From: Paramacrobiotus metropolitanus
Taxonomy: Eukaryota; Tardigrada; Eutardigrada; Parachela; Macrobiotidae
Assembly (NCBI RefSeq): GCF_019649055.1
Contig: NW_026570386.1
Location: 62,001-126,000 of the forward strand
DNA length: 64,000 nt
Reading direction: 5' to 3'
Under the pieces are notes generated by a model. That model was given only the letters and a program-made list of their open reading frames with translations. It searched no databases and had not been told where the DNA came from. A program made the translations under genes and the position numbers. Numbering within the stretch: position 1 is the first letter of the stretch; every line of letters starts with the position of its first letter. Positions 19,695 to 64,000 of the stretch are shown in pieces.

Positions 19695-24783
<5,089 letters not shown>

Positions 24784-25347: not shown

Positions 25348-28300
25348 TCAGTAAGTAGCCCTGCTTAAATAGCGTTGGTGAAAATCAGCTACGACGGACT
25401 TCCAGTCAACGCAGTCTTGTATCCTTCCGGCGTTGCGGATCCGTCGAGACCACTGACGGCTACCTGCGAAAATTGTTACAAAACAATGCTATAACCTTTG
25501 AAACTTATTAGTTTCTAACGTGTCGCGCTGTACCAAAAAGGGTGCGTTAACACCTAAGCTACTCATGCACTGCTATCTCACCTATTGCCATGACATGAGT
25601 CGCGCTAGCAATACTTTTACGTGACAAGTGATGACCATGAATAAAATGAGAGCCTTCACTGTGTAAGGATTTGGTGGAGCCCGAAGATTTTGATGACAGA
25701 ATCGTTTCCGATACGGAGGGATTTTCTGTAATAAGAAATGGGATTAGTCGATTTTGCTTATCCGTAAAGTCATAGTTCGTGCATCTCAAACATGTGGAGT
25801 GGGTAATTATCTGCTGTCAATATTCGTATTTAAAAAACTTTTCAAATCTTCAACTGAGTTCAAAATGCATGCATACAGTGCCACCACAGGTAATTCCAGC
25901 AACTAAAAAGTGACCTGTTGCATTTTCAAGCTTTTGTACGAGTACGTTTCTGTTTGATTTGTACAGTGTCTTACCCTGGTGCTGTAGTACAGTAAAGAAT
26001 AAAATCGGGAGAAGGAGTAAATTAAGAGGCGGGGGAGTTAGCAGGGATTTTTCAGTATTGAGCACAAGCGCTGCACGCCCGTGTTTCCACTCCATATCCG
26101 AACGCGACTGCACTCTTTTGTAAGTATTGGTAAATGTGGCCACCAGGATTTTTAGAATTACTGCCAAAACGAAGCAACATTTCAAAACAAATCAATTTTT
26201 TTCTTGATGCAGAAGTGCGCCTTCCTACCGATGACGGCCACTGCAACAAAGAAAAGAATTAGCATCTGGTCTTCCCTTTAAAATATTACCCGAAGATGCA
26301 TTTACTCATTAAATAAGTCATATGGAAAATTTCGATTAAAGTGTCGGCGAACACTGGTCCATCGTTGGCCGCTGCGAACTCTGGCTCCGTTATGCGATCG
26401 TACAGAGAAAAGTATAGTTTGCGAATAATTTGGGCTATGTCGAATTCATGCTCCTCGTGTCCGATCGGCGTAACCTCAGTGGAATTTACAATGTGGTGAG
26501 CTCTGGAAGGGCGTGGTTCCTTAGTTTTAACGTAGAGAGCTGCGCACAGAAACGTGCATCCGAACAAGAACGGAATGAGTATCCCAAAGAATTGTATAAG
26601 ATCCCAGCCAAGTTCCGCAAGAAGAATGCGCATTGGTCCAAATGTGGGATGGAATACTAAATAGCTACAGAAAACAATAAACATTATCCATTATGGTTAT
26701 GTGTATTTATTGTATTAAACGCATCGCCTACTACTCGTGTTTTTTAATTAATCATTAATACATTATTCGTTAACGGTTTATCGTCCACTGCACACACAAG
26801 AAACACATACCGGAAATCATATGCATTTACGCAAAATTTTTAGGTTTGACTGGTTTCTCCGAAAAAATTCTTCGTATTTCGCACAATTATAATATTCTGA
26901 AACAATATTAGGAGACGGTGTTAATGTTAGGTGCTGACCCCAGAATCTGTAATGTGGAAACAAGAAAGGCCAAAGCCAGAAGTTCATTCCGGACGTAGAG
27001 CACAATGGGAAACACATGATCGCCGCGGACAAAAGCACCACCCATATGCACAATGACCGCCGCAACGCATATAACCACCACGGTTTTCCTCAATGCACCT
27101 CCTTCTCCTTTAATTTTCCGAACCGTAAATTCGTACATAATTTTTCCCGCTATCCATACTAACAAAATTATTTCCTCCGGCGTAGGTGTTCGATAATTTG
27201 GGCGTTCGTATAAGGGAATAAAGGTGACATGATGGTTATTGCCAAAATGACCAGGAAGTACAAATGGCTAACCAAATTACAAATGTACTTCATCAAAGGA
27301 ATGTCGGCATACTTATACCCGAGTGGTAATGAAAAGATAATCCATAATAAAGGACACACTAGCAGCGCCAAAAACACTATTCCAATACGCAGCCAACTCC
27401 ATGCCTGAAAGCCTAGCCAGACTTTCGTGACGTATACCTGCAGTTCCGGCAAAGCCGCCAAATGTTTGTGGTCGCCATCGAGTATCAGATCGGCTAATGG
27501 ACGAAGTTGAATATCGTATGACTGGAAAACAACGGCAGGTGTGTGTTTTGACAAGCAATTTGTAGAAGATCATACGTCAGAGCTGAGCAAAAGTAACTGG
27601 AATGTGCTAAATCGTGCTCATATTCGCGATCCATCGTCGCGGCTGTGCGGTAGAATTCCGTGACCTTTAAAGCGACCTCCACGGGAGACTGCGCATGGAT
27701 GATAAATTCTTCCAGCGGACGTTGTCGAGCAAGTTTACTACATATCATTAAATTGTACAAAAATTCTCGATCTTCAGCCAACTCTGTGCTGTTGTACGGC
27801 TGTTTCAGAAGAAACCGGACGGTGTCCAGTTGACGAGCACCCACAGCCACCTTTAGCGGGGTTTTTCCAGCTTTTGTGCGGCATTCCGGTTGTGCGCCAT
27901 GGTCCAGCAGCTGTTTAACTAAATCTAATTTGCCGGTAGCTGCAGCAAAATGCAGCGCAGTGAATCCGTTCTGGATAGTAGAAATAAAACAAAAGTTAGG
28001 TTAGTGACGTGTTAATCTGTTGTAATTCTAAATTAAATAAACGAAAATCTAAATCTGATTTAACCTTTTAAAAGATCCGGCGCATACATAACGGAAGCGA
28101 TAAAATATGCCATTTACGATAAATTATAACCTGGTCTTGCACAAGGACATCGACGTCGTGATCCATCAGCAGTTTACAAAATTCCATATTTCCGGCAATG
28201 ACAGCAAACATCAGCGTTGTTCGTCCTTTGTGATCGGCAATGTTGACATCCGCTCGGCCCATCAGTAGGTTAGCAGCTGCGATATTCCCACTTCTCGCGG

Positions 28301-31300
28301 CAAAATGGAACGGAACCGCGCCGGTCGTCGTGCTGGTGGCATCGGGATCACATTCGGGAAATGTCAGCAGCAAACGGATCACATCGTCCTGCCCCGCTTT
28401 ACAAGCCAGATGTAGTGCGGTCAAACCGGGTTCAGCAGCTGTCTCTTTGACAAAAGCATTGTTCACCGTCGGCTGTTCGGATTTTGTATCCACAGGGACA
28501 TGTTCCAGTACTTCCCGGAGAAAATTCATTTGACCATAATATGCCGCTATGTGTACTGCGTTCAAGCCGATCTATAAAATTAATAAAATTATTTCCTTCT
28601 GTACTCGTGTTTATGTGTTCTCCAGGTAATCGGCCTTTTAAAGTTTGACCCACTTATAAACACAAACCAAACCCTAAAAAATGTACTCATGATTTTTCGT
28701 GTTTACAGTTAGTACCTTCATGCTGCACGTCCTCAGGGTTAAGTAATTCTGCAATACCCGAAATCCACTGATGTTACCAACCTTGGCGGTTAAATGTAGA
28801 GGATTGAAACCTTCCTGCATAGAACATTCATGTCGGATGTAATAAATTATTTACATATCTGTGAGTAGTAAACAATAACTGAAAGCTAGCTTTTATCAAA
28901 GCACGGAGGAAATAAATTTTATCACATATTGTCATGAATTTCTTACTCCGACCGGTACCTTGTTTTCTTGTGTGGCGTCTGCACCATTTTCCAGGAGAAC
29001 ACGAAGAACCTCCGCGTGACCATTAATAGCTGCTAAATGCAGAGCGGTTGAATCCGTTCCCTGGAAAGTGGAAACAAAGGCGGCATATGTTTTTTCATTT
29101 TTCAGTTTGTAAAAGGTAACTAGAACCTGAATTTTGGAGGATACGACCAGGTGACGATCAACATCCAGCAGCCTTGTTATTACTCGGATACTGCCCTGCT
29201 GTGCGGCAATATGGGCTATATTGAGTCCATTCTAAAATTGACAAAAATTGTCTATTCGGAGAACGGACTACAGTGTGCGTTAATGCAGAAAAAATAACGT
29301 AGAAAGACGCAGATTCTAAAGGGCCTAAGCTATACCCAGTCGGTGGGAGTCAAAAGTTTCAGTCCCGCAGGAAGACCCATGAAAAGGTCGAACACACCGT
29401 CTTGATCGGCATGAGCAGCAAGGTGTAGTGGTGTTTGACCATACTGAAAAATGAGGATATAGTTCTATCAATAATCAACGGACACCTGCAGTATATAATA
29501 CTGATTACTTCATCTTTAGCCGCTGGATCCGAACCCATTTGTAACAACTGTTGGCATACGTCGATGCTCCCAAATTCAGCCGCATAATGCAGTGGTGTTT
29601 TCTTGTGCTATGGAGAGAAAGGGAAGCTGCCAATCTTTTGCACTAGCATAAAATGAAGGCAGAAGTTCATGGTGATGTACAGTAGTGTAATTTTGCAGGA
29701 GCGTATTTTGGTCGTTAGTCGACTGCAGCGAAATGTATTTTCGGCAGTTACTTGTATTATGGGAAAAAATTTAACTTGATGGATACCAAGAAATTTTGCT
29801 GTTGATAAATTAATTATTTGCCCACTTACAATGGACATGGTGTCCTGGACTGCAGCATGATCTAGGAGCAGATCTACAATATCTTTGGATCCTCGTCGGG
29901 CTGCCAGATGCATAGCCGTTAAGCCGGATTTTGTTTTGGCGTTAACGAAAGCTCGGTATCGCAACAGAAGATAGACGATATCCCGGTACCCGTGAGCCGC
30001 AGCCAGGTGCAATGCTGCTCTTCCTTCCTAAACAAAAACCATGTCAACAGTGCGCATGCCTGATTGGCAGAAAATTATTCGCTTGTACAGTAAAATCTTT
30101 GTAACTTAAATTAAAATTTTACCTCGTCAAAGACGTCAGTTCTTGCCTTCCTTTCCAGAAGTAATTCTACAATCGCTACATTTGCCAACTTCGGACGCTA
30201 ACATCAGCGGCGACAGTCCTTTCTGTATATATGTGATCAGAATTTTATTTTTGAAACTTTTCTATCGTGCATTTCATTTAATTCTTTTCTTCATTCCCGC
30301 AGCGATGCCACAAAAAATGGAATTTAAATTGAATAGTTTTACAACCTTTGTGCGCATGTGCAGCGCGGTATGTATCGCATGATAGGGAAGATTGTTCAGC
30401 AAAGCCACGAGGACACCGTAATTTCCAAATTCAGCCAGGTAATGAAACGGAGTTTTCCAGTCCTGGGAAAATACATTTTCGGGAAATATTGTTTTACCGC
30501 GGCTACCGCGGCTACCGCCGCCAATTTGCCAGGTTAGTATAGCGAAAAGGTGAAGGTTATAGCTATCATATAAGAAAATCAATAAGTGACCTCAGTAGTT
30601 CGAGCATTAACAATGGCGCCACGATCCAACAGGAAGACAGCTAGACCAGCCACATCTTCCGTTCTGATACTGCGTTGTTTTTGATCTGCATCACAACGGC
30701 AAAGACCGTGTAGCGGTGTTTCTCCAATCTACAAGGCGCACAATGGCTATCATGGCAAATGGTATTACGAACTTAACTTTACTTTGTTTCTCATATGAAG
30801 CACCGCCGAACGGATACCGGTAACGTTGTTGTTTTCGACGGCATTCCCATACTTCAGTATCACACGGGCAACCTGAACATTTCCATACAAGCAAGCAGTG
30901 TGGAGCGCCGTATTGCCCTCCTGGTCGACGGTATGAAGCAAAGCGTTTTCTTCCAGAAGTAGTTCGGCAACTGCCGCATTCCCCGACGCAGCCGATATGT
31001 GCAGCGCGGTTTGTCCCAGTGAATTTTGCAGGTTTAAATTTGCGCCCGATAATACAAGGTTGCGTGCCGGTAAAAATTCCTTTGGTAACTTAGCGGCCAA
31101 ATGTAAGGGAGCCTCACAAAGAGGTCCTCCTGTCCGGCAATATAGTTTAACAGTACAATTATGTATGTTATTTTGTTCTTCGTTATCCTTTGCCGCCTGT
31201 GTACTGATTTTGCTGTAGCAATCGGTTCGTCAGTAAATTTAAGGAAAACCTATTTACTGAAAATTTTTGCTAAATATGGTGTTTTATTTTGCAGTAACGT

Positions 31301-33964
31301 ATTGCAGCTGAGATAATTACAGAAAAACATTGTTTATACCGTTCGCGTCAACACTGGCTCCGTGTCCTAAAAGGATGTCTATAGCGTCGTGCTTGCCTTC
31401 CATGGCCGCCAACTGTAGAGCGGTGTACCCGTCTTTGGTTGGGATATCAATAAAGGACACAAATTTGATTATTGCCAAAATTGTTGTTTCGTCTCCTAAA
31501 TCGGGTTACGGCACAAGGATAAATCAATACACTGGGACATTTGGAAATTTTAGCACTGCGAGGATAATTATACATGGCTACTAGTTATATATATATTAAA
31601 GTACTAATCGCTACAGCCGGCGCAGCACTAGGACGGCACTTTTATGCAGATCGCAGTGTTGAAATATACAATTCCCATCATTTCTAACCGGTGAGAACAG
31701 CCACGTGTAATGGCAGACGTCCTGCTTTGTCCGGAATGTTGAAGGACAATCCGTTTGACTTCAAGACTTTCAAAACTTCCACATAGCCTTTCGCCGCAGC
31801 GAGATGCGCCATTGTCTGGCCACTCTGCAACCAGAGAAGATAATTCTATCCAAATCAGGAAGATAAAATCCGCCAATAAAGGTCAACTTTCGGCATTTCG
31901 AACGTACATTATACAATTAAAGATAAACGTACCTCGGTTCTTTCGTTAAGGCTTACTTCCAAAAACATTGCCAGATACTGCTGTAAAAATTCTGCTTGTC
32001 CATTTAAAACTGCGGCTTGTAACGGTGAACATCCATTCTGAGCAAAACAAACTAATTTGTGAGATAAACAATCGCAATTTAAAACCGGCGTCAAAAAACG
32101 CAAACCTTAAAATCCTATATCAATGTTATTTTCTTGAGTATCTTAATTAAGTTGATTATTCTTGTGAGAGATTATGCGGAACAGCGGAAATTATTTGAGC
32201 TCGGCAATGGTAAAGCAGAAATATCAGCAAAAGCCTGCATGCATAATGCAAATAAGCATGTGCGTAATAATTATATGAAAAAACAAACAATACTCGTACA
32301 ATAGAAGCACTCTACTCTAGGTATCGTACAGCACCTGCCTCATCCTTAATGTCTGTTGTAACGTGAAATCTCCTGAACGATTCCAGAAGGCTGCTGTTTC
32401 CGGTGGATGCCGCAAGATGTAACAATGTTTCGCCTTTGTTCTATGCAGCCAAAAATTAATGATTCTAAGCTTGCAGATAAACGTTACAGAATAACTACAT
32501 GGTCGTAGATGTTGCCGATAAAGTGTTACAACAGTGCTCACATTCTGCAGATTTAAAGGAGTTCCCGATTCAATTAGCACCTTGACCATTCCGGTTTCTT
32601 GATTCCGGACAAAGAGATGTGCTAAAGTATCGCCGTCTAATTGCTAAAAAACGTATTTACCGAAAAATGTAAGACATAGCGGCAGAAATTTCGCTTGTGT
32701 AGTCATTACCATGTTCTGGTAGGATAGTTGCTCGTCGGCCTTTTCCGAAAGGAGCAGTCTTAACAAACTCGTGTTCTTCTTCCCTGCCGCTAACCAGAAA
32801 GGAATGTATCCTTCCTGAGCAAAGTTATGTAATGGTTCAATTAGCTACAATTGGCGGCTGAGAATATAGAAAGATACGATCATAAGAATTCATAATACCT
32901 TGTCACATATAAGGCGAGCGTTCTCGCCGGAAACTGGAAACAGGAGATTGATCAATGCGGTAGCCGCATCCGAGCCGCGCATGCATGCTATGTGTAGCGC
33001 CAAACGACCATCCTATGCACGGCCGTAAAATCACTTTAATAGCGGTAAAATTCGTACAAAACTGAGATGTCTACAGTATAATATGTTCGCTTTGCTTCCG
33101 AAACAGTTCATGTGCCGTTGTTGCATGTCATGTTTGCAATATAATCAGATTACAAACAGCATGTACAATTTAAAAAATGCTACAAAGAAAATTACCTTGT
33201 CTACAATTGTTCCATCTGCTCCGTGCGATATTAGAAATGTCATCATGTCTGTGGACTGAGAATCCATGCCACATTCTGCGCATGCGTGCAATACAGATTT
33301 TCCGTGCTGCAGTTCATACAAATTTCTTAAATTAATTAATCTCGCTAATGTTGAACTCCCAAGCAGCAGGTTTACGCAGGACTTATTGCTTGAGGGTTAA
33401 ATGTAGAGGCCGATATTATGGAGAAGGTGTGATTTCGCTAAGCACAAATCTTACCTGGTCGACGGCATTTACATCTACACCGATTTCCAGAAGAGTTGCT
33501 ACTAAATCAAGTTGTCCGTGCAGAGCACAAATATTTAGCAAAGGTGACTGTTTATCCTACAGAATAAAAATGTCTACAGAAAATTACTTAAAAGTTTGCA
33601 AGGTTATTCTTACCCCGAGGACAACATTTGCTGCATACTCCTTTGCGCGTTCCGCTTTTGCCGGGTTTAACTGCCAGATCTGGATAATTTCCAGATATTT
33701 TCGTAGCAGATGCCACTGCTTAGAAATAGCCGCTTCTCGTAAACGTTCTGAGATACCAGATGGTAGATCCAGCAGGTTGTCGGCAGAGATTGCAGTTAGT
33801 AACGATCCATGACCATCCTGATTGCTGCTATTGTTTGCATCCAATCTGATGGCGGTAAGTTCCGCCACGTCGGTATTATGCACTTGTTTTATTCGAACAT
33901 CCCGCACGGAATTGTCCTTTTCGGATGGCGAAAGACTGATATTTGGAGCCTCCAGGGAATCCAT
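25348..33964 (-). CDS. TRPN (NOMPC-type) channel, array copy 1, divergent and frame-broken
   Basis: Starts at ATG 33964 (MDSLEAPNISL) and stops at 25348. Ankyrin exons, mostly one repeat each and phase 0, run from about 33.56 to 27.84 kb. The TRPN linker follows at about 27.85-27.42 kb (RPLEEFIIHAQSPVEVALK), S1-S4 at about 27.42-26.9, and S5 plus pore at 26.66-26.29. The S6 micro-exon is 26229-26240 and the TRP-box exon is about 26.19-25.97 (FTNTYKRVQSRSDMEWKHG). Two tail exons end near DCVDWKSVV. Three frame breaks are visible against the paralogues: an extra A in an ankyrin exon (about 30181), an extra CA in the linker (27539-27546), and one T missing after S2 (27220-27222). The pore helix lacks the usual FG (KLYFSLYDRI). 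Either a decaying copy or uncorrected sequence indels. Confidence 0.75.
26229..26240 (-). other. 12-nt micro-exon in S6, TRPN copy 1
   Basis: TGGCCGTCATCG between an AG acceptor (26241-26242) and a GT donor (26227-26228). With one base from the preceding exon and two from the following exon it restores the S6 reading M-AVI-V before ILKILVATFTNTY. Confidence 0.75.
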
Positions 33965-34832: not shown

Positions 34833-37800
34833 CTATTCTTCGTCAACGTGCTGGAATTCATCCACATCCGATAATCCAAAGTCTTCTCCTTTCTTCTCAT
34901 ACGCGTCCATGGTTTCTGACCATGGTACTACGTCGGTTAGCTTTTGTCGCACAAAGGGATCTGCACGCGGCTTTGCAATTTCAGACAAACCTGTGAAATA
35001 TGTAATAACCATTTAAGCATATTTATATTTGGTACAAACGAATTATGTACGCAGAAAACATAATTATTACAGCGTCTGGGCACATCAGTTCTAATTATTA
35101 CAGTGGTAAGAACTAAGAGATTGTGTTGCGACTATAATAAAAAAAAGTAAGCTGTCTTTTGTAATGAAACTTACGGCCGAACCCTTTTTGGAGGTATGAT
35201 AATCCCAACGCAAGGATATTAATGGGTGGTGGACTAAGTGGGCTGTGTTCCATGCTTAATATAATTTTAGCCCTCATATATTTCCATTCAAGATCGGACC
35301 GTGAGTTAATTCGCTCATAAGTGTTGGTCAGCATTGCTGTCAGGACATGTGTTAAAACTGGACATAAAAAAGGAAAAATTGATTGGTTAGAATAAATACT
35401 TTAACTGACACAGTGGCTGGTCGGCCCACTTCAACGTTCCGTTATCAAACACCTTACCAATAATCACCGCTGAAAAGACAAAGATGTTAAAGTTAAATCC
35501 GTTTGACTTGTTGCCCACAAAATTAGCTTTACCGGTTAAATATGCTCCGTTGACGACCCATGTTAGATAGTCAGCGAACGCTGGACTTCTGGTCGGTTTT
35601 GGGTACCACTTTTCCGGCTCAGCGTGGTCAAAACGGTTAATCAAGAGAAAGAAGTTTAGGCCCATGAAGTACAGGGATCCCAGGGGATCCAGCACCATAT
35701 CCGGCATCAGTAGGTTGTTGATGTTTTCACCCGGAACCAGCTTGCTTTCTTCATGACTGGCTTCTGCTTCCCGTTTTTCTATATGGTGAAATGATACTCC
35801 CGGTTCTTCTGACAAAGACTCGGCGTGACCTTCTCCGGATCCGTGTTCACCAGCCGGTGCCGGAATTACCGATTCATACAATGCGGAAAAGCTGAAGGTG
35901 AAGCCGACAATGAACAAGGATAATAAAACTAAAAATCGTGCTGCATCCATCATCAAATCTCCCAACATAACACCGAATGGGCCGAAAAGTTGATGGAATG
36001 ATAAATATCTGTAAATATACGTGCACCATGGTGTAATGATGGATGGAATTGGACGCATCAATTTACTGTATGGCCATAAATTCATGCGTTACTGACACTA
36101 GACCGTCATTTTACATGTGTTACATGGTATACATAGTTCATAAATTAAAAACCCCCGATGAGCATTTTGCGTTGACTCTTAAATAATTATTAAGCTAGAA
36201 TGTTTGGGAATTTAGTTTTGCACGCTACCATCTCGTTATATCGGAGTTTTTGTTAAACTATGCCAACGGAAAATTAAAGCGCACCCTGGCGCCAGGTGTT
36301 AATTTTGTGCTTATGATTAGTATACTTACGATAACAGGCGGATGTCGGCGAAGAAGCAAGCAGTGGCTAGTAATTGTGACCTTACATATAGCAGGGTCAC
36401 ATGTCGTCCATCAACTACAAATATCGCTGCGACATGGATAATGATGGCCAGCAACGAGAAAACCAGGATGAGGACTTTACTGGTTTCCAAACCTCGCCCA
36501 CTATGATGCGTTACAATATCCGCTACAAAATTTCCAAACAGCCACAACAACAGCAGCCACTCTTCCGGCAGTGGCATCAGGTCATTTCTTTCATACAGCG
36601 GCTGAAAGGGTGTCATAAAGACCAGTACGAAGAGTATGATAAAGTAAAGGTCACTGGTAATATGTAAGACCAGCTTTAGAAAAGGAGTTTTGCTAAATGG
36701 AAACTTGCAGGGAATGGAGAAAATTAGCCAGAGGGGCGGAAAACAGAGAAACATTAAAAATATCAATACAATCTGCCATTTCTGCAGCGGCGTTCCGCCG
36801 TACCATAAACGACCCAAATGGGCCTGAACGGCCGGAAGCGCCACCACTTTCTTATGGCCAAAATTCACTATAAGCTCCAGCAATGTCGCACTGTGACGAT
36901 CAACAGCACTTAACAGATCACTGTTATCGAATCGCAAGCAAGCAAAGGAAAGAAATTTCCCGGCGGTTTGTTCACAGAAATCGGACGCTTGGTAAAGGTC
37001 AACAGCATTCAGTTTGTCCCGCACAGATTGGTCTCGGAAAAAGTTGGCTAATTTGAGAGCGAATTCTACGGGACAAAGGGAATATCTCATAAAATCATAC
37101 AGTGGCTTTCCACCGGGCTGTGGTTTGGCACATAGCATGAGATCCGTCAAAAATACATTATCGTCCAAAAGATGATAGCTGTCGTATTTCTGTTTCAGTA
37201 GTTGATAAACAATATCCAGCCTTTCCTTAGGATCGTAGTTGACACTGCCATGAACTTGAGAATGCACCGCATAACACAAGGGAATTTTCTTATCTTTGGA
37301 GAATGCTGACACGTTTGCACCTTGAGCACATAGCAGGTTGACTATATTGCCCTTTCCGGCAACCGCAGCACAATGCAGAGCCGTCCATCCATCCTGCAGA
37401 ACGTACTCGTATGCAAGAGTATCGTACTTTACAATACTCTTGGATGGATCATGATTAACTACATAATTATGGTCTGATAATACTTAAACTTGATCTTGCA
37501 AATCAAATCAGAAAAGTATAAAAATCTTTATTGTAAATCAAAAAAATTCCAATAGATTTTCCACTAACAAATGTGTAAGGGCTAGTTAAGATTTTCCACT
37601 AACAGATTTTCCACTAACATGGCTACGGCTAAGATTTTCCACTAACAAATGTGTAAGGGCTAGTTGAAAAACATAATAATGAAAACTTTTGGAAAAATTA
37701 TTCAAATCGTTGTGAAAGCACAGAACAATTCAGTTTTTCTTTACTTCAGGGCTCTAAAACACTGCATATACATTCAGTTTTGATCCAATGGCAAACGGTT

Positions 37801-40800
37801 CACCTTAATAAAACTGAAACTAATCACTGAAGCAGTAGCCGTTTTGCTTACATCATTACTAACGTCCAGATGTGCGCCTTGTGATATCAGTAAGGTCGCC
37901 ATCTCCAGTCGTCCGTTCAAGCTGGCCAGCATCAGTGGCGTTTGACCTTTTTTGTCCTTAACATCCAAATCGATCCCCGATCGGGTAAGCAAAAGAACCA
38001 CAACGTTTACGTGCCCATTAATGGCTGCCATATGTAAAGGACAATATCCAGACCCTTCAGCTACCGCATCAATTTCCGCGCCGGGATAGTTTAACAGCAT
38101 TCGTACCACCTCGTCTTGTCCGGCTCGGCATGCCAGATGCAGAGCGGTCAAGCCGGCTTCGGCTCCGGTTTCGGTGCCAATGGTTGTCTTGGAAGCGGGG
38201 ACGGATGAACGAGTTCCCGCTGGTACAACCGGAAGGAGTTCGCTCATGATGTTCGTTTGACCCCAGTATGCCGCTAGATGTAGAGCATTATATCCATTCT
38301 AAAAAACGAAGATCGTTGTATAATCGTATCGATTAATCATTTGCGGGAACTGGTGTACTTTAGCCGTACTTGAGCTCAATTTTCTATAGAATAATATATA
38401 TGGTCTTTGACCCAAATTTAAACTTGTAAAACGAACATGTCGTACGGACCTTGATACTGGTGGCCTGTGGTGAGAATGCTTGGTAAAGTATCGCCATTGC
38501 ATCCAGATGTCCGTTTTTGGCCGCTAAACTGAATGCATTCAATCCATCCTACCGAAACGCACAACAGAAATTCACATTACGTTTTAAAATTTATGCATTA
38601 CGTATTGATGCGTGACTTATTAATACTTATAAAACGAAAAGAGTAAAGCACATATAGTTTACTCGTGCTTTTATAAATTTTCGCTATGTTATTTTGCTAG
38701 TGTATCAATTTAATTTAAGTTTCAAATTTGCTGTAAAAAACTAGAAAAATTTCAGGCATTTTCAAATCTTTTGATAAATATTATATTTATAGTCGTATCA
38801 TGAGCACAAACGTTCTTTCTCAGCCAATGCAGCCCGACAATGCGTATCTGCACCGGATTTTTATTCCTACCGTATTTTCGCTTGTATCGGTGATGCCGTG
38901 GTCCATTAGCAGTTGCAGAAGTTCTGTGTGACCACCGGTAGCAGATAGCTGAAAAACGGTATTTCCATCCGCATCCAGAGAATTTATTACGGCATTCTTA
39001 TCAAATGACAGCAGTTCTTCGATCACGGCTGTGCATCCATTTTTTGCAGCAATTATCGCAGCAGTTTGACCTCTCTAAAAATTCTCACGTATAATGCGCA
39101 CAAATCTCAAAGGAGTCTAAAAAAGGAAACTGACTGCATCTCGCAACGATAAAGGATCTCGGTCGGCCAGTTTGCTTAAAAACAGTTTGATGATTCCCGG
39201 CTTATTATACTCCGCCGCCAAATGCAAGGATGTGCTACCTCTCTTTGCGCAAACAACCAATTAAATTATTATGCATTACAAAAAGAGAAATAAAGCGAAC
39301 TTACATTATCCATCGCCAAAGGGTCCGCATTGAGGGAGAGCAGACATTCGCAGACATTCACAGTTCCATACTGAACAGCGAAGTGTAGCGGATGTTTCAT
39401 GTCCTGTACAATTATTTCGTGGGAAAATTAGACGCACTTTACAGTATCCATAATTCTATGCTAAACTAAAATAATTATTCGTATCATTCCGGAACGCGCC
39501 TTAACGCACTCTGCTAAGACAGTCTTATAACGCGCCTTAACAAATAGTACGTGTTTGAAAACGGGAATGATTAGTATCGTATGGAATTAACAATTTTAAT
39601 GAATAGTGCACCTATGACTTACATTGGTGTTTGCGTCAACGGAAGCCGCATACTTTTCGACCAAAAGCCGGACGATATCTTCGTAACCTTTCATCGATGC
39701 CAGATGTAAAGGTGTAGCTCCAGTTCTAGTGCGGGCATTTATGAATGCCTTTTTTCTTGCTAATACATCAACCACCTCCAAGTGGCCGTTTTCAACAGCA
39801 ATGTGCAAAGCAGTCCTTCCCGTCTACGACCGGTTCAGTCTTATATTGTTAAAAATTGGCTATCCCATTTAAGGTGACAATTTGTTAACCTCGTCAAAAA
39901 TGTCTGTCCTTGCATGATTTCGTAATAGGGTTTTGACAATGGCCGCGTCTCCACGCTCGGATGCAGTCAGGAGCGGCGACCACCCATTCTTTGTTTGTCG
40001 GTTAATAGCCGCCTGAACAGCATCGGGATCAAGATTGGCTAGGAGAACCGCCAGCATCTGGGAATTCCCATTTCTAGCACAGTAATGCAGCGGGGTCTCG
40101 AACGTCTATTCAATATTCGAACGTCTATACGGCGCTATAGTGTATCTGTATGTATCTGTTTTTATGATACCGTTTTTGAGCACATACCAGCCTGGTCTGA
40201 TTTGTAACGTTTGCATGGTGGTCTAAAATTAAATGCAGCAACTTAATGTGTTCTTCCGGAAAATGGGTCATTTCAGGGTTTGTTTCTGCAACGAAGTGCA
40301 TTACGGTTTCCCCTTCCTGCAAATTGTTACATAATAAAGCTCAACAAGTTACGAAGTAGGGACTTTGCCCCTGTGCGCCCTTGTGAACGTTTTATAAAAA
40401 TAATAAAAAAATTAACAAAACAAATATTATATACCCAGTATGATAGTATAAGTAACGTCACAAAGCAGATGCTTCTCTACTAATACTTGTATTTATGCAT
40501 TATACAGTACGAGTACTATATCGTAATACTACAGTGGACACCGCAAATGTGGTTACACCGATAGCTGTATGCATGCATAGCGCTATCGGTTATCGGTGTA
40601 ATACCACATTTATGGTGTCCCATTGTACCTTGTATTCTGCTCTACCTTGTTTGCCGCGGCAACAACAGCGTTGGCCTCATACTTTCCAAAATGTTCAGTT
40701 AGGTGCTCGATCAATATTTTTGCCACTTCATAATGACACGATCGGCATGCCAGGAGGAATGGTGTTTCTCCATTAAAGTTTTTTGCCACAGAATCGGCCT

Positions 40801-49900: not shown

Positions 49901-52631
49901 CCAGATCGTGCAGCGATATGCGCTAATGTGCTCCCGTCCTATGAAGCAAAATAAGTATGTGAACGTTGGTTTAATCTACGGTGAACCTGTCGACCGTGAC
50001 CTTTGCTCTTGTTTTAAGTGATCCCCGGAAGCGTTCCACTAGTGTATCAACAACATTCGTGAGGCCTTGCTCCACAGCTAAATGCAAGGCTGACCGCCCC
50101 ATCTGTCATAACCAAAAAGAACGTGTATATATATCCCACGCACGAAAGACCTTTTTCTATTTTCTAGCGCTTCTATTTTCTAGCGGAAGAAAGTCACGTG
50201 AGACACAAGCATGTACTTACCACATCAATTAAATCCGGATTAGCTTTTTTTGTCGTGCAGCATACTCACAGCATCCCCGTTCTTAACCATCGTGGCAACA
50301 TGCAGCAATGTCTCACCTTCACTCTGCATGCGTAAGTACCCGCATAGTAACATTCAGGTTGTAAAAAACATTAATTGTGCACAATTAAAATGACTTTCAA
50401 CCTTAAAGTTAGATGAATAATTTATATTGGTTACAACTGAATCTCGGTTAATTAATCTCGGGCATATAAAGGTGTGGAGCTGAACTTACGTTTTGTATGT
50501 CAACGGGAGTATCAAATTCCAGTAAGATCTTAAGAACTTCGTTGTCATGTCTGCGGATAACAAAATGCGCCAGGGTGTCGTCATTCATTTGCTGCAATTT
50601 AAAATTAAAATGTGGCAAAGTTGTAATTTAAAGGCTGCTAACCATAAGCAGACACTGGACGAGGTATATTCAAAACTCTGGATATTAAAATTACGTAGAA
50701 TGCTAGTTCTGGTATCATCGTCTGCGCTCATGTATGCATATGAATCAATATTCACTACTTAAGCATCAACCATATATAACGAATCTGTGTAACTACAGAC
50801 TTGCTTAATTTATTGTACACCGCTGGAAGTTTTTTTAAACGTTAGTAGGTGTTAACTGACTTTATTCTGATAGGACAATTGCTGGTGGGCTTGGTCCAAC
50901 AAAAGCTCTTTCAGTACATGCAGATTAGCAACATCCGCCGCCCTCCAGACCGGAAGAAATCCTTCCTGAAAAATAGTACGTCGCCGCAAAATGCAAATAA
51001 TGACATTCCTGGTCGCGACACATTAAGATTCTCGGTCAATATTCCCGGATGCTTACTGCGTCAGATATCATTCTGCATTCCGGTCCTGACAGAGGAACCA
51101 AATACTGAACAAGCGGCCATGCACCAAATTTCCGCATGCAACTGCAGAAAACAAACGGGTCGTGTTTAAGCCAGCATACTGCTTCCGCTTTCGCAGTGAG
51201 GTGTATAGAAAACGCATTGGTAAAAAGTGCACTCACGCTAGATGCAGTGGAAGCTGCTTTAGATCCTGAAATGAATAAAGAGTTTAGTTGAAATTTACAA
51301 AAACTACTACGGTACCACCTCCATGTCTTGCAAAAGTGGACACAGAATAACAGAAAGTACAAGTTACCCCTCCAATAATCGTGGGATCTGCGCCGTATGT
51401 AACGAGCATCCGGACCATTTCTTCCTTTGCATCCCGTACCGCGAAATGTAAAGCAGTTTCCCCATTCTAAAAAGATTTGCTTTTAACCGGCTTGAAATAG
51501 TAGCTACACTACCTCAAGAAGCATCCGATTCACAAACGAAATTTACAAACTTGGTCATGTAATTCCCTTCAGAAGTCATTGGGTTACAGTTTCGCAATCT
51601 TTCTAAAATCTATATCCGCAGTATTAAATTTATATATTGCGTAATCTTACGTTTTTTTTAACCCAGTAAAGTCAGCCATATTTGAAAACGACCACTTGCC
51701 TCGGTGGCTGTATTGATCTCCGCTCCAAGCTTGAGAAGCTGGTCCACGAGACCAGCTCTGCTTTCTTTGGCACATAGCATTAATGCGGTGACTTTTGTGC
51801 CCTGTAACAGCAAACAGGCGCTGGTTAAAGAATTTTTCCAAAGAATAGCAAAATTTTAAACTTAACAGTTTAGCAAAGCTGTTTTAGAATAAAGCAAGTT
51901 TAATTTTAGATCTTACTGTCAAGCACTGATCTTTACATTAACACTTTCACTGGTTAACTATGTACCTCTTCCGCCGCATTAACCGCCTCCGTCACCTTCG
52001 AACGCTTTTCGACGACCCTGGCCGCTTTTTCTAACAGGCGCAGCAAACTTTCCAACGAACTCCAGCTATTAGTCTTACAAGAATCCAGGATCAAACTGCC
52101 CGTATTATCTGGTAATTCGATTCGTTCCAGCATCGGTTTCGGAGAGATTGATCTTGACCGTGAATCCTGTGGTTGACCGTCGAATATTTCCTCCACGTTG
52201 TGTGGTGGATCAGGTGACCTTTCATTTCTAATAGCCGGTACGTAATCTTGTGGTGTGGGTGAGGGTGTCGGTGCACTGGAACTCGGAAGTACATCCCGCA
52301 ATCCTTTAGGTAGCAGCCTCTCGGGTGGTTTGGAGGTGGATGCGTCAGAAATTAATTGCCGCTGCTTTTTGGGTGGCACCGGTTGCATGGACTGCTGCGT
52401 GGAGATTTTTGGCAGATCCTGTTTGGGTTTGAAAAGTAGTGATGGTTGCAGGTTGCGATTGTCATCATGATCTTCGGGCACCGGTGTGGGAAGAGGTGGA
52501 GGCGGCGGAAAATCATCAGAATCCGCTTCGGGGAAACCGGTTTGGGAGGGCGGCTGGTTAGCGGATGGAGGGAGCGGTGGAAGAACACGCACGCCCAAGT
52601 ATGTTTTACTTTGCATAACGCGCGAAATCAT
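43922..52631 (-). CDS. TRPN (NOMPC-type) channel, array copy 3
   Basis: Starts at ATG 52631 and stops at TAA 43922. The first exon (52631-51966, 222 codons) is a Pro/Ser-rich disordered segment ending in a conserved helix (SCKTNSWSSLESLLRLL). Ankyrin exons follow to about 46.3 kb. The linker exon (46296 down) reads NKPLQEFIITSPSPVEVALK. S1-S4 are at about 45.68-45.15 kb, and the S5/pore exon at about 45.06-44.71 holds the pore FAMFGLVNP. The micro-exon is 44644-44655. The TRP-box exon is NLLIAMLSDTYQRIQ then SDLEWKYGRAKL, the NOMPC signature. Two tail exons end near KLPECCDWKAVVAGY and an acidic terminus. The second exon ends with a GC donor at 51699. No frame break was found. In flies and worms TRPN channels gate mechanically in sensory cilia. 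Confidence 0.86.
44644..44655 (-). other. 12-nt micro-exon in S6, TRPN copy 3
   Basis: TGACAATGGTTG between AG (44656-44657) and GT (44642-44643). It supplies V-TMV-V before LINLLIAML, matching NOMPC S6. Confidence 0.8.
49290..49372. repeat. Degenerate ACGTTATTGTT repeat in an intron of TRPN copy 3
   Basis: At least six partial copies of GTTATTGTTAC or CGTTATTGTT in tandem just after an ankyrin exon boundary. Non-coding and probably a young minisatellite. Confidence 0.55.
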
Positions 52632-54377: not shown

Positions 54378-57300
54378 TTAATTTTCGTGTTCCAGTCCCA
54401 ATAAAACGCTGGTATTTGTATCGGGTTCATAATCGGTAGCTGATCCACCGCGATAAGCAGACACGATGCCATCCCAGTCTATCACGTCGACTAGTTTTTT
54501 TACCGGTATTTTTCTGAAATTCTGCGCAGCTCCACCTAATCAAAGTACAAAAAGAAATAACTCATTATATTACAGCTGCTATCACTGATTCATTTTTTTA
54601 CGATGATGGTTAATACACGCGGTCAGATTTACAGTATCATTTTAATTTGTTCTCTATGTATAAATTGTGCCAAAAAAATACCTTCGGCCGCGCCATGAAA
54701 GCTGTTGCTCCAGTTTAACACGCGAGAGCCTTCGCGGCTTCCCTTGCCGCTTGGTGCCAGTTCTTCCGTAGATTCGCTCTTACCGCGTTTCCGAGCAGCG
54801 GACACACATGCTACAATCAAGTTCATATATAGTTTTAAATAATAATAGTTTGCAACAAATATTTCGTCGACCAGACCGCAGGAAAGGTCTTCTAATATAG
54901 CAAAAATGCAAACACAGACGTCAGATTTGCGTGTTTGTTATGAAATCCTCTTTCAAAAGTATGCTTGCATAGTACAGTATTTAGAATTAGTGTGCTGCAC
55001 TTGATTATGGGCTTACACAAAACGCTGCTGCACTTCGGTTAGCTAATGCATAATGCTGCAACATGTAACATCCTCTTCTAGTTTAAATACCTTTTGTTCC
55101 CTGAATTAAATAGGCACCGGAAACGGTAATCAGGTTAACTGGTGGCGGACTAATTGCTGATTTATCCATATTCATAATCAGTTTTGCGCGGCCGTATTTC
55201 CATTCTAAATCTGACCTAGCTTGTATCCTTTGGTATGTATCCGATAACATGGCGATCAACAGGTTAATAAGCACTGTATAAATTGGAAAAAATTGATTAA
55301 CACCGAATCTTGCGCGGCGTACCGCTTCATGTCTCAAGAGGAGTACTCACCGACCATGGTCACTGCAAAGAGCAAAAAGTGTTATCACAATCCGTAAGGC
55401 AGCAGAACAGCAAACGTCTTACCCATGAGATAGATCATGATTAAAATTTTAATCAGCGTTGGGGAAAATTCCGGACTGTGAGGAGGGAAGGGAATTTTTG
55501 TGGGGTCAACCAGACCGAACAGCGCAAAATATAAATACTGGAAACTGTCTAGCGGGTCATACGATAAATCCATCATCGGCGCAGTTTTATTGTAATGCCA
55601 TCCGTCAAAGGTAGGCGACTCTTCCGTGTCCAAAAACATTGCTGAATGGCTAAAGGAAAATCCAATCATGAAGAGCGCTAAAACCACTAAAAACCGCAAA
55701 AGATCCTTCACAAGGTCACGAATGATTATGCCCATTGGTCCGAACATATAGTGGAAGGAAAGGTAGCTGCAAAAACAATAATTAAGTATTCAGCGCAGTT
55801 TTCAAGCTAATTTGCCCCTAACTTTTTTTATCCGTCTCCGTCACGAGTGTGTTCATTTACGAGCATACGAACATCGAGCCGGTCTATAATCATATAAAAA
55901 AGAAACCTACTTGACAATCTGTACGCAAGCGAATAAACATGCGGTGGCAAACAGTTGATTCCGTACATAGAGCAGTGTCGTTTCTACGGGCGGATCAAAT
56001 GGAAAAGCTGCAGCATGAATAATAATCGCTAAACCACAGAAAACTAATACAAAAACCCTTATCCATCCCAGTCCTTGCCGCTCTTCTGCGGTGTTGAACT
56101 CGTCCAAAAATTTTCCCAACAACCATGCCAGTAAAACCCATTCGCTCCACCGTGGAAACGCATCGTGGCGATCGAAGAGTCGCTCAAATGGCGACATAAA
56201 AACCAGAATCAAAATAGTAATGAAGAACAAATGACTAACAATGTGGCACAGCAACTTCATAAAAGGAACATAATTGTATTTGTGGCCCAGAGGAAGGGAA
56301 AAGATGAACCAGATAGGCGGGCATATGAGAAAGGACAGGAACAAGGATATGCTTTTGGCATCACTCCACTCCTCGTTTCCGTACCACACGTCGGTCAAAT
56401 AACGCTGAACCGCCGGATCCGACACAACTTCCTTATGGCTGCCATCGATTAAGATGTCCATTAAGGATTTATCGTACTGATCGGTGGCACGAAGCACCAA
56501 AGCAGGATTGAAACGGTTGCATGATATGGTCAACAAATCGTTTCCTAAGGTTTCACAAAACTTGCTGGCTAAGGTCAAGTCGCGCTCTAGCTCTTTCTCC
56601 CTAAAAGACTGCTCTTTATAAAAACGAGAGAGTTTTAAAGCAATTTCCACGGGTGACGGGGAAGTGGTAATGAAGTCTTCCAGCGCCTTCTGGTGGAACA
56701 ATTTACCGCAGTTCATCAAATCAAACATGAACGCTTTGTCTTCCAGCAAAAGAAAGCAGTCGTGGTCTTTTAAGATGAGATAAGTGAGTACGTCGGTTTT
56801 CTGAGCACTAGCAGCGTAGCATAAGGCAATTTTTCCGTCTTTTGTTACGGCTGTCGGGGAGGCACCCGCGTCGATGAGTAATTTGATGACCTTTAAATGG
56901 CCAGCTTTTGCAGCATGATGTAAGGCGGTCCACGAGTTCTATACCAACATTCACAATAATTTTTAAAATGCTCGAATCACCACATTCGCTTTGAAAAAGT
57001 TGTAATTAAAGTACAAACCTGATCAATCTCAATCTTTTCTGCGAAAAGAGTCGGTAGTATTTCGTAATTTTTATTACTTGCTTATAATTACGTACCTGCT
57101 AAGAGCAACACTGACACAAACGTACAGTACTGTATTGTACTTCGACTCACGTTGTCTACAGATGTGACATCGGATCCTTGACCAATCAGCAGCGCCGCCA
57201 TTTCTTCATGCCCAGCTGCGGCCGCTAACATTAGCGCGTTACGGCCTTTTTTATCCCGAATATCCAGTTGCGTTGCTGATTTACTCAACAGAAGACCGAC

Positions 57301-60300
57301 GACGGGCAGATGACCGTGCATTGCAGCCATGTGAAGCGGAATCATTCCAGTGTTTTCTGCCGCTGCATCCACTTGAACTCCGGGATAGTTCAGTAATAAC
57401 CGCACCAGGTTTTCTTGACCAGAGAGACTAGCCAGATGCAGTGGCGTCAGACCGGGTTCGGCGCCAATTTCCCTAACAATCGAATTGTGAACAGTGGGCT
57501 GTTCGGAGACAACCGTAGCTGGGACGGACGTTAACAATTCCCGGGCAACGTCTACTTGTCCATAGAAGGCCGCAAGATGCAGTGCCGTAAATCCAGTCTG
57601 TTGTTATCAAGACGTCTAACATTTGACATACAGAAACAATCTGTAAATTCGGTTAACCTTGATACTGGAAACTTTGAGTGAAACGAGGTCTTTTAACACT
57701 TCTAAGACAGAAAGGTGACCATGTTTGGCAGCCAGATGGAGCGGTGTCATTCCATCCTAATAATGCATAAATTTTATTTATTAAAATGGTGATGGAAAAA
57801 ATAGGGCTCCATGAAATTTTACCCCGTTTTCATCTACTGGAGAAGCTCCGCCTTCTATTAAGCTCTTGACCACTTCCGCGTGACCGCCTGCCGCCGCTAG
57901 ATGAACAGCTGTGGACTCGTCCGTCTAGATAATATGCGCAAAACGTAGAAAACAGCGGTCCAGAACCCGGTTCACATCAGTCACAATCACCTTGGTTTTT
58001 GCATTAATCACTTGTTCCTTCTGGTGATCAATGAGAAGTTTGACCACGGCGTTACTCCCATTCTTGGCTGCTATGTGTGCCACAGTGTATCCATTCTGTA
58101 GTCATAATAAGTTACGGCATGTCGTAATCGATGGAAACCTGAAGCCTTCAAAAAAAGCCTGTATACCTCATCCACCATTGACATTGGATTGGTGTCCGCC
58201 AAAGATTTTAGGAATAACTCCACAATTGCAGCGTTGTCTGTCTCAGCTGCCAGGTGTAATGGGGTTTGACCTTTCTGAAAATATCAGATCTTAAATATCA
58301 GAAATGTGCGTACATCGTCACATTTGACATAAAACCTTATAAACTTGAACTTTATCTACCTGATCTTTTGCGTTTGGGTCCGCTTTCATCCGCAAAAGTA
58401 CATCACAAATATCCAGTTTTCCGTATTGCGCAGCCATGTGAAGCGGTGTCCTTTTCGCCTGCGCCAAACAAAGTGGTCTGTCAAGCAAAGGTCATTTTTC
58501 GTAATCAAGCGTCAGCTGTACCAATGACAAAGCGTCAATGGAAGCTTCGTATTTTTCCACCAGCAGTTGAACGATCTCGGTCCAGCCTTTCATTGCTGCC
58601 AGATGAAGCGGTGTTACTCCTAACTTGGATTTGGCGTTGACAAAGGCTTTGTGGCGAAGAAGATAATCAACAATGTCAGCATGACCGTTTTCAGCAGCGA
58701 TGTGCAGAGCAGCTTTTCCTTGCTGTATGCCGGCAGATTTCATAATTATTCAGTACGCTGCATAAAATATATTATGTGTTTAGTGTTACACTCCAATCAC
58801 ACCCACCTCGTCGAAAACATCCACCCGAGCATTGTTTCGCAAAAGCTGTTTGACAATTTCCTCGTGACCGTGTTCCGACGCTGTCAACAATGGCGACCAT
58901 CCATTCTAATTGTAAGGTAGAAATGCTTTCAACACTATTTATCATATTAAAGGTAAAGGTAAAGTTATTGATTCCCTCTCGTTGCCATATTTCTGAATGA
59001 TTTCAAAATTGTTTTTACCTTCGCTTGTTTATTGACAGCCAGTTGGAATTTAGCAGGTCCTAAGTACTTAACGATCGCCGTAAGTATTTCGACGTTTCCA
59101 CATCGAGCACAGTAATGTAGAGGCGTTTCTAAACTCTGAAATTACGGGTTTGTCAGCACCGTTTCCTTGATTCGTGAGTGAAGAGTAACGAGGCAGTAGC
59201 TGCATGTTCATTGCTTACCATTTTTGTTTGTATACCAATTTCGGCGCTGAAATCCAGCAAAAGCTGTACCAGTTTCACATCTTCGTGCTCGAAGTGGATC
59301 ATATCTGGGGCCAGTTCTGCCGCATAGTGCATAGCTGATTCGCCTTCCTAGAGTAGGTTAATCGATCGAAAACATTTAGTAAAAGATAAGTTCGGCAAAA
59401 GTTAAATTCAGTCTCACTAGATTCTGGGCATTGACCATCCCCGCCGCATCCGATTTGGATCTTTGACTGGCCGACTGTTCCAGCAATTCTTTGGCAACAT
59501 AGTAATTGCAGCTACGGACAGCCACGTGCAGCGGCGTCTCGCCGCCTTTGCTTACGGCCGACGTCTCGGCTCCCTCGGCCAACAAGATCTGTATCATCCG
59601 CAGTGCTCCATACCGCGCCGCCACATGGAGCGCTGTTTCTCCGTTCTCCATTGTCGCATTCACATCCGCACCTGATTTGATTAGCATTTCCGCGCACAGC
59701 TCACCATTAGGTACTCGAGCAGCAATGTGCAGCGCTGTCTCTTCCGCTGCACCCCCTGCGTCAACGACAGTCACTGGTTGTAATCGTGCACTGATCCTGA
59801 CAATAAATCAAACAGTCAGAAAGCAGCAATGATTTGAGTTTGACCTTTGATATCAACGGACGCTCCGTATCCCAGAAGCGCTTCCGTAACTTGCGGTTTG
59901 CCATATTCCACAGCCAGATGTAACGGTGTATAATTGTCGTTGGTCTTTGCATCAACCGGCGATCCATTTTCAATTAAAATTCCGATAACTTTTGCGTGAC
60001 CTTAGATTATCATGCGATGTCATTAAAAATTGTCGTTTACGTTCTTGATATGCAGCACTAACTTTCCTCCAGAAGTGGACTCTTTAATATGTACGCTTGT
60101 TTTTAGCTTACCTGCTCGAGCTGCTGCGTGTAACGCCAGTGCACCGGCTTTGTTAGGCATGTTAAGCGGCACTCCTCTCCGCAACAATGCTAATGTGGCT
60201 TCTGGATGTCCCGTTAGCGCAGCCAGATGCGCTAAGGTACTTCCATCCTGTGATGCCATAAGCGGTATTTATGATATTTATACAAGAACCGAGTATTTAC

Positions 60301-62609
60301 GTAATTTGCTGTGCGCACTGGAATTTTAACGAAACACTTTGCGCTGGTGCGCTACTTACAGCTGTTCTGGCCATGATTGACCCTTTGAATTTTTCAGTAA
60401 GAACCTCTACGACTGTTGTGCTTCCATTTTCGACCGCTAAATGCAGCGGTGTTCTTTCGAACTGCAAAGAAAATTTTGAAATTACTTTGATTTATGCAAC
60501 GGGCACGAAAATAAGTATGGAAGTACTTATATTATAACAAAACAATATAGTCCTTGCTGATGAATTTTCAGCACCATTTCGTATTCGGATAATGTTATGT
60601 GTAACAGGTGAAATAATAATAAATTGGTGTATAGTAATTAAGCAATATGCAGTCTGCCGTTTTAATTTATGGTCATTATCGTTTAAGGTCATGGAGTTGG
60701 GATACCGTATATTGTTACAATACATTCTGCCATGCTACGAAATAGGTAGTTGCCTCTAACCCTATCAACAAGTTCCGGATTGGCTCGGTGGTTATGCAAT
60801 AACGCCAGTGCAGAGTCATTATGCGTTTGGGAAGCAATGTGGAGAAGGGTCTGTCCATCGAACTGTAAAGCAAATATTGATCTGCTCCCCGCGCCAGATT
60901 CAGTTCACACGGAAGTTACCGCGAACGGCATGGTCATACATTTTGAATGTCAACGGGTGCGCCTGCATCTATTAACACCCGTAGTGTCTCCGTATCCTTT
61001 CGTCGCAGTACGAAATGCATTAAAGTGTCACCATTTTGTTGCTGTAAAATATCGACATGTTGTTTGCGTAGGTACGGCCTACCACGCCAGCAGCGTAATC
61101 AAAGACGGCAATTACCTTGTTTTGGTAGGTCAGCTGCTCCATTATGAGATCCGTAAGGAGTTCTTTCACAACATGCACATTAGGCTCCAGTGCAGCACAC
61201 CAGACCGGAAGATATCCGTCCTGTTAAGACCAGTTTTAGCACAGGTCAAAACTGAACTCTTAATTTATTCGCTGACCTTGTCTTCAGCCAATCGACCTTC
61301 TCTTCCAGAATGGGGTATCAGAAACTGTACCAAGGGCCAAGCAGCGATCTTTCTTAGACAGGCTGCAGCGATTACAAGTAACAAATGTCAACTGAACAAG
61401 GCCAAAAAATTTAGCCTGCACGCTTGGGTTAAATTTTTTCCCTTACCCATATGTAACGGCAGCTGGCTTCTTTTCTGAAAAGCATAACAAAAATAAGACA
61501 TCAACAAATATTTGGTTTTGCTTGAGAATCTAAAATTTTCATTACAATTTGCTAAGCAGAAATACTTACGCCATCAGGAATTGTTGCATCGGCACCAAAG
61601 GTTACGAGTGATCGGACCATTTCATCTTTGGCATATTGTGTTGCAATATGTAATGCCGTCTCTCCTGCCTGTAACTCAAAAGATTGGTCAGAATATTATC
61701 TTGCTTTTATTGAGATATTTGTTTTTCGAAACAATTACATACCTTAGAAACAGCATTTATCTGTGCTCCGAATTTCACTAGCACTGCAACATCGCCCATT
61801 TTGCTCTCTTTGGCGCATAACATTAGCGCTGTGTAGCCGTTCTCCTAAGAAATTGTCAACAACCCTGAGTTAAGCGCTGTTGTCAAATGGACAAAAATGA
61901 TTACAGCCAATCAGCATACGATTACCTCGTCCGCAAGGTTGACAGCCTGCACAATGTCATCCCGCTTCCCATCCTTACGAAAAGCCTTGTCCAGAATTTT
62001 TAGCTGGTTCTCCACCGATGTCCAGCTGCCCGTGAGACAGGATTCCAGCAGGAAAACTCCTGTACTTCCCGATACGGGAACATCTTCCTCGGTAACATCC
62101 ACGACAGGGACGTTGGAAAACGAGGCCGCACCGGGTGCATTACTTTTCGCAGCGTTATTCATGGCAATTAAATTAACCACAGGAATACGTGGTGAAAACG
62201 TAGACTGCGCTTTGTTTACTTCCGGTTCGGGATTATCGCTGGGGATAATAACATCCGATAAGCTTAATGGTGGGCTGGGATTCAATGTCGGCGCATCGCC
62301 TTCGTTCCCTGTATTCAATCGCCCTCTTTTACTGGGATAGACTGGAATGTCCTCTTCTGGGATGGTTTCTTCGATGACGGTCTGGAGGCCGTTGGATTCC
62401 GACGGATCCCACAATGGTCTGACATCTTTGGAAGACTGCAGGCGATTGCGTGGACGGATGAGTTTAACAGGAAGCGCTGCGGGTTGCGTGGAATATGGAG
62501 ATGAAGTATCCATTTGTAAATTTGGATTATGACGACCACTGCTACCGGAAGTTGACTTTTGTTCTACGGGCAAATGTTTCCGCGATGACGGTGTCGCAGG
62601 ATTGGACAT
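54378..62609 (-). CDS. TRPN (NOMPC-type) channel, array copy 4
   Basis: Starts at ATG 62609 (MSNPATPSSRKHL) and stops at TAA 54378. The first exon (62609-61926, 228 codons) is disordered and ends in the helix SCLTGSWTSVENQLKIL shared with copy 3. About 28 ankyrin repeats follow, down to about 56.8 kb, close to the 29 of fly NOMPC. They include the conserved loop SEQPTVHNSIVREIGAEPGLTP (about 57.4-57.5 kb). One exon (56749-55911) carries the whole linker plus S1-S4 (SPSPVEIALK; ICPPIWFIFSLPLGHKYNY). The S5/pore exon is 55.75-55.43 kb with pore FALFGLVDP. The micro-exon is 55351-55362. The TRP-box exon starts at 55273 (SDTYQRIQARSDLEWKYG). The tail ends KKLVDVIDWDGIVSAY. No frame break was found, and this is the cleanest copy. 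Confidence 0.88.
55351..55362 (-). other. 12-nt micro-exon in S6, TRPN copy 4
   Basis: TGACCATGGTCG between AG (55363-55364) and GT (55349-55350). It restores LM-V-TMV-V-LINLLIAML in frame. Confidence 0.8.
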
Positions 62610-63560: not shown

Positions 63561-64000
63561 TTAATCATCGAATCCCCCGAGATCTTCCAGTTCTTCATAG
63601 GCTGTGATAATTTCCGACCAAACGGCAACATTCGTGAGTTTCTGAACAGGGGCATCTTCTTTCAGCGCCGGAGTCAAACCGTGAGCTGACCCTGTAAATG
63701 ATGCACTACTTTAAAATTAATACAGCACTAAAATTTGTCGCTCGCTCTTTACTATTTTTTATGAACTGACCCCGAATGTCGTCTACTAAACTTTTTCTCC
63801 ACCGACGGATTTTAGAAGCCTGAGTGTAGTCCTTTCCAAGTAATTTATCGGTGGAGTCCCGAATGCGGCGGACAGATCTTCGCTCCAGCACAACTAGAGA
63901 ATAAGCAATGTATTCACCGTAACAATAACTGCCATATTGGAGAGACATCACATTCATGTAAGCAATACAATATGCTTACGAAGAATCCCTTTCAAAGCAT
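63561..64000 (-). CDS. TRPN channel, array copy 5, C-terminal tail only
   Basis: Three exons of the 3' end are visible: up to 64000-63980 (codons for ALKGIL after the TRP box), 63893-63771 (a basic segment with ERRSVRRIRD and KIRRWRK) and 63691-63561. The last exon reads KLTNVAVWSEIITAYEELEDL and stops at TAA 63561. Junctions are GT-AG and in phase. The terminal segment aligns with copy 2 (KLTDVVPWSETMDAY) and with the DW-x-x-V-V tail of copies 1, 3 and 4, so this is a further paralogue in the same orientation that continues beyond the window. Confidence 0.72.

Follow-up and report, generated by a model that had tools for sequence, protein, structure and literature searches.

How does a tardigrade come to carry five genes of a channel type that bilaterian animals are reported to carry only once? 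A 2015 survey finds exactly one TRP-N in all Bilateria except Amniota, where the gene has been lost (PMC4494053), and a 2024 review likewise gives one TRPN in bilaterians (PMC11526382). The single gene was kept even after whole-genome duplications, which has been explained by tight constraint on the ankyrin superhelix (PMC4494053). The single-copy norm that a preliminary description of this DNA had assumed is thus in print. The stretch of DNA analysed here (the window, 64,000 nucleotides) covers bases 62,001-126,000 of contig C166 and comes from Paramacrobiotus metropolitanus. Very probably it exposes a five-gene tandem TRPN array, which goes back to ancient duplications of a single TRPN gene with introns and has since evolved mostly under selection on the protein, and we propose channel roles for its members.

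The TRPN (NOMPC-type) array lies on the minus strand at window positions 25,348-64,000, which hold four full-length genes and the 3' end of a fifth. All five genes have the same orientation and follow each other in the order E, D, C, B, A in the direction of transcription:

25,348-33,964 (-): TRPN copy A, 1,697 residues, three frame breaks each counted as X (exon models; NOMPC 195 bits)
26,229-26,240 (-): copy A, 12-base micro-exon inside S6 (exon model)
26,306-26,664 (-): copy A, exon with S5, pore loop and start of S6 (exon model and pore alignment)
34,833-43,159 (-): TRPN copy B, 1,658 residues, no frame break seen (exon models; NOMPC 233 bits)
35,458-35,469 (-): copy B, 12-base micro-exon inside S6 (exon model)
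35,533-36,008 (-): copy B, exon with S5, pore loop and start of S6 (exon model and pore alignment)
43,922-52,616 (-): TRPN copy C, 1,778 residues, one frame break counted as X (exon models)
44,644-44,655 (-): copy C, 12-base micro-exon inside S6 (exon model)
54,378-62,609 (-): TRPN copy D, 1,826 residues, no frame break seen (exon models; NOMPC 345 bits)
55,351-55,362 (-): copy D, 12-base micro-exon inside S6 (exon model)
55,911-56,938 (-): copy D, exon with the last ankyrin repeats, linker and S1-S4 (query of the first whole-genome search)
63,561-71,637 in window numbering, C166:125,561-133,637 (-): TRPN copy E, 1,644 residues, no frame break seen (exon models)
63,561-64,000 (-): copy E, 3' end inside the window (last 440 bases; the rest continues beyond the window on contig C166)

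Gene boundaries were set by hand from homology and splice sites. An automated first prediction had merged all genes into one chain of 288 exons, and two homology-weighted runs split genes; both approaches were discarded. Start codons and C-terminal tails are predictions that lack transcript support, and the least certain exons are the last two of E and the next-to-last of D. The models contain 132 introns, 131 with GT-AG borders and one, in copy C, with GC-AG borders; this count is not independent evidence, since exon boundaries were picked with the GT-AG rule in mind. Nor did we use as evidence the AATAAA signal found at most 400 bases from the stop codon in three of the five copies (E, C and A), for which the expectation is 0.36 per 400 bases.

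The exon structure tells us what was duplicated. An exon of 136 bases recurs in all five copies, an exon of 338 bases in four (347 bases in A), and every copy has a 12-base micro-exon within S6. Hence these are copies of an intron-bearing gene and not retrocopies. Exon fusions differ from copy to copy, and copy B has an insertion ahead of the pore. The first exons of C (51,966-52,616, 651 bases) and D (61,926-62,609, 684 bases) are long compared to those of E (264 bases), B (222 bases) and A (351 bases); the long N-terminal exons could possibly encode a tether or a targeting region.

These models bear out the head-to-tail array of at least five TRPN genes on one strand that the preliminary description had proposed. 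Its spacers of about 0.8-1.75 kb agree with the modelled 762-1,761 bases (951 between E and D, 1,761 between D and C, 762 between C and B, 868 between B and A). Copy E extends beyond the window to C166:133,637. Of the claim that four complete copies and the tail of a fifth are present, the four full-length models and the 3' end of E stand, but "complete" has to be qualified for A with its three frame breaks and for C with its one. The ankyrin region, linker, S1-S6 and TRP box occur in all five models. The linker motif SPSPVE is exact in C and D, but reads CPSPVE in E, AQSPVE in A and SLCPVE in B.

The rest of the window holds other genes. A WDHD1/Mcl1 homologue lies at 2-2,865 on the plus strand (Mcl1_mid E 1.5e-36, frame 2-1018). 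Two adjoining RNase_T-type exonuclease frames at 10,559-13,812 on the minus strand match Pfam with E 1.5e-4, just below the cut-off, and 2.4e-13; over 179 bases the two share 74% identity, which makes them a further tandem duplication, smaller than the array. Beside the array, frames with Ig-like and kinase-like sequence at 20,255-24,000 on the plus strand give one weak kinase match (E 6e-4, below the cut-off) and resemble an FGFR-type receptor.

The sequences support that all five genes belong to TRPN. When transmembrane parts are compared to solved structures, fly NOMPC ranks far above the next channel: 345 bits against 96 for TRPC4a with copy D, 233 against 79 for TRPC5 with copy B, and 195 against 45 for TRPM2 with copy A. 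The transmembrane parts of C and E were compared by alignment, in which they are 41% and 39% identical to NOMPC and 26% each to TRPC4a. The ankyrin region of copy E matches NOMPC residues 123-1189 in a single stretch of 966 bits, and NOMPC is the sole solved structure at E 1e-150. TRPN channels typically have some 28-29 ankyrin repeats ahead of the channel domain. In NOMPC there are 29 (PMC5951680). Over NOMPC 123-1091, the five copies have 972-983 residues compared to 969 in NOMPC, and none of the five alignments has a gap run of five or more; therefore the length of the ankyrin spring, compared as one region and not repeat by repeat, is kept in all five. At a threshold of 0.001, Pfam ankyrin models match all five copies and Ion_trans matches three; on copies A and B, Ion_trans finds no match even at E 0.1.

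Whole-genome searches, covering 169.8 Mb in 533 contigs, returned to the same place. The transmembrane exon of D gave nine matches and the transmembrane part of copy A gave 19, all on the five array loci. With the transmembrane part of fly NOMPC we obtained 18 matches on these loci, with one exception: a 44-residue stretch of S6 and TRP sequence on contig C2 (E 3e-4). We thus count five TRPN loci in the genome, all on contig C166, which departs from the one-locus rule of Bilateria. A further copy, more diverged or unassembled, could still exist. In the literature, our search found no paper about TRPN in tardigrades and no paper giving TRPN copy numbers in crustaceans, with most subscription journals outside its scope; tardigrades are named in connection with TRPS (PMC9242649).

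Searches with other domains left a few observations in the same genome. Ion-transport domain matches are dense at C132:106-117 kb, C47:349-355 kb and C4:3,051-3,061 kb, which could be four-domain channels or other channel arrays. HSP70 matches cluster at C72:194-242 kb and C13:580-655 kb and suggest a tandem HSP70 expansion. Two of five DM-domain matches, at 2.135 and 2.163 Mb, lie on contig C5; a DMRT pair has been described from scaffold 5 of P. metropolitanus between 1.96 and 2.37 Mb (PMC11191345). Searches with PF00061 and PF14651 for a SAHS-type lipocalin led instead to an ordinary fatty-acid-binding protein, encoded in a single open frame (L004, 1483-1899, plus strand), which has ReP1-NCXSQ as its closest solved structure.

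The five copies are far apart from each other. Full-length identity between pairs is 34-55%, and identity to fly NOMPC is 35-46% in the ankyrin part and 28-42% in the transmembrane part. Where two copies share the amino acid at a four-fold site, their third bases match in 0.23-0.35 of cases in all ten pairs; chance alone would give about 0.25. Silent sites are saturated, and therefore the duplications are old and not an artefact of the assembly. Second codon positions differ least and third positions most in ten of ten pairs, including those with copy A, as expected if selection had maintained the five proteins through most of the time since they arose.

For the tree, we took the five copies, fly NOMPC and zebrafish TRPC4a, and used both the channel data and the joined ankyrin and channel data. 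Two pairs emerge, B and E with supports of 99 and 98, and C and D with supports of 85 and 61. The free tree from the channel data groups the five copies with a support of 55; the free tree from the joined data places NOMPC beside B and E with a support of 37. Three constrained trees all fall within the confidence set (AU p 0.19-0.78), so that the data fit NOMPC inside as well as outside the five and do not fix the place of A. That every duplication happened within tardigrades goes beyond what these trees establish.

What else could produce such a locus? The copies might be ankyrin-rich channels of another family, TRPA or TRPC, which merely resemble TRPN. TRPA1 and many other ankyrin proteins do match the copies through the repeats. 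Yet on the transmembrane part alone NOMPC leads the next solved channel by 150 to 249 bits in the searches with A, B and D, and the 60 best matches listed for each of these three contain no TRPA chain. On this ranking we reject membership in TRPA or TRPC, and the TRPA placement that the preliminary description had named as one danger fails with it; we regard another family as extremely improbable. Head-to-tail repeats are a usual place for assembly errors, and the array is such a repeat. The copies could then be a single TRPN gene that the assembly shows several times, as haplotypes or as duplicates. We give this next to no credence, because the silent sites are saturated, which rules out an assembly duplicate; the identity of 34-55% and the copy-specific exon fusions also speak against it. 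The collapse of all copies to one gene, the other danger named in the preliminary description, fails on the same identities and on four-fold sites that agree as by chance. A quite different history would place part of the duplications before the origin of tardigrades, with the extra copies lost in other bilaterians, and would make A the relic of a second ancient TRPN. Copy A, the most diverged, is nearly as far from its neighbours (34-39% identity) as from the fly (35% in the ankyrin part, 28% in the transmembrane part). The tests do not reject a NOMPC nested among the five, and the joined data, analysed without constraint, yield such a tree, though a weakly supported one. However, A lies in the same array and has the same exon pattern and micro-exon, and a long branch explains its distance. 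Of the three constrained trees, the one that groups the five copies has the best likelihood on both data sets. An origin before the tardigrades thus appears improbable.

Alternatively, only some of the copies may work. Copy A, and perhaps C, would then be a recent pseudogene, and the live family would have three or four members. The frame breaks are the reason to consider this: A has three, at about 30.19, 27.55 and 27.22 kb, and C has one, at about 50.25 kb; none was seen in the gene models of B, D and E. Copy A also scores lowest when each copy is checked against the columns that do not vary among the remaining four, keeping 334 of 486. Four breaks in about 26 kb of coding sequence are about twice the rate of our HSP70 yardstick, where 88 matches over 59.6 kb, with 69 of 130 candidates scored, contain four frame changes that leave no space for an intron. 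Against this, all four breaks adjoin single-base runs of three to seven bases, although at two breaks the run has just three bases, a common length, which makes the link to sequencing error weak there. The published assembly was made with Canu from nanopore reads (PMC11191345). Since the HSP70 genes of this nanopore assembly show such breaks, we consider sequencing errors likelier than decay, even if some of the HSP70 matches could be pseudogenes. These HSP70 frame changes lie on C72 (two), C2 and C6 and may be either sequencing errors or pseudogenes. Furthermore, the model of A runs over 1,697 residues without a stop in the chosen frames, the frames after each break having been chosen by fewest stops, and substitutions in A are mostly at third positions. 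Copy A may possibly be a young pseudogene, but a family reduced to three or four live members seems rather unlikely to us.

We return to the reading of five old, constrained TRPN genes and ask what the copies might do. Pore residues are numbered here by NOMPC, and all pore predictions rest on an alignment at the level of single residues. The residues W1260, G1427, A1555 and W1572, the last being the gating tryptophan of the TRP box, are kept in all five copies. At the filter position G1506, C, D and E retain the glycine, which is replaced by leucine in B and by aspartate in A. At S6 position 1551, C, D and E have asparagine, the fly chain glutamine, B histidine and A lysine. At position 1554, isoleucine is shared by C, D, E and the fly; B has threonine and A valine. 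The S6 motif VLINLLIAMMSDTYQRIQ is an example of the motifs identical in all TRPN orthologs of the 2015 survey (PMC4494053); C, D and E depart from it at one or two positions, B and A depart strongly, and the fly chain of 5vkq also differs from it at one residue. Of the 12 TRP fingerprint residues, C, D, E and the fly chain have ten, and A and B have seven; at least nine are reported in 95% of TRP channels (PMC9242649).

With these residues, C, D and E would be ordinary NOMPC-like force-gated cation channels. In these three, the ankyrin spring would pull on the linker and the TRP helix, which would open the lower gate. In B and A, the spring and the coupling parts are retained, but the filter ring and the lower S6 are changed. 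They are probably subunits with altered conduction, acting by themselves or joined with C, D or E in mixed tetramers. The array would thus provide several types of touch channel from a module that other bilaterians use once, and the copies may form a mechanosensory family with distinct uses.

A more specific version, combinatorial mechanotransduction, we offer tentatively, as possible but doubtful. Here, C, D and E would act as force-gated NOMPC-like channels, and B and A, with the gating spring retained but a leucine or aspartate filter ring and a rebuilt lower S6, would vary ion selectivity or gating between touch cells through mixed tetramers. Copy A would be a TRPN subunit whose acidic filter is of the type listed for TRPV5 and TRPV6, and it might favour calcium. 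TRP channels differ in their filter residue, and the filter glycine G1506 of NOMPC is tabulated among them (PMC5951680, Table 2); we therefore do not regard this glycine as exclusive. Aspartate filters are listed there for TRPA1, TRPV5 and TRPV6. Because the aspartate-filter channel TRPA1 is not calcium-selective according to the same source, a calcium-favouring copy A is only one possibility.

Five old and constrained tardigrade copies break the one-copy rule of Bilateria. They amount to a natural experiment, in which the length of the spring is fixed in all five, and the pore, the N-terminus and the tail vary. The array also makes it testable whether TRPN forms mixed channels.

How does the array compare to known systems? 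Drosophila NOMPC (TRPN1, 5vkq) resembles the tardigrade copies in its ankyrin region, which is in register over the whole compared length, and in the linker, S1-S6 and the TRP box; with C, D and E it also shares the filter glycine and the S6 isoleucine. In contrast to the single fly gene, there are five tardigrade copies in tandem, of which B and A are without this glycine and isoleucine and C and D have long N-terminal extensions. TRP-4 of Caenorhabditis elegans is an ecdysozoan TRPN mechanoreceptor as well, but is present in a single copy compared to the five described here. Cnidarians have TRP-N paralogs, four in Hydra and two in Nematostella, with evidence of divergent roles in Hydra (PMC4494053). 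The five tardigrade members sit in one array, and with the Hydra copies they are compared by number and not by genomic arrangement. In both cases a full-length TRPN has multiplied within one animal lineage. The tardigrade array, however, belongs to a different phylum and lies inside Bilateria, for which the survey reports one copy (PMC4494053).
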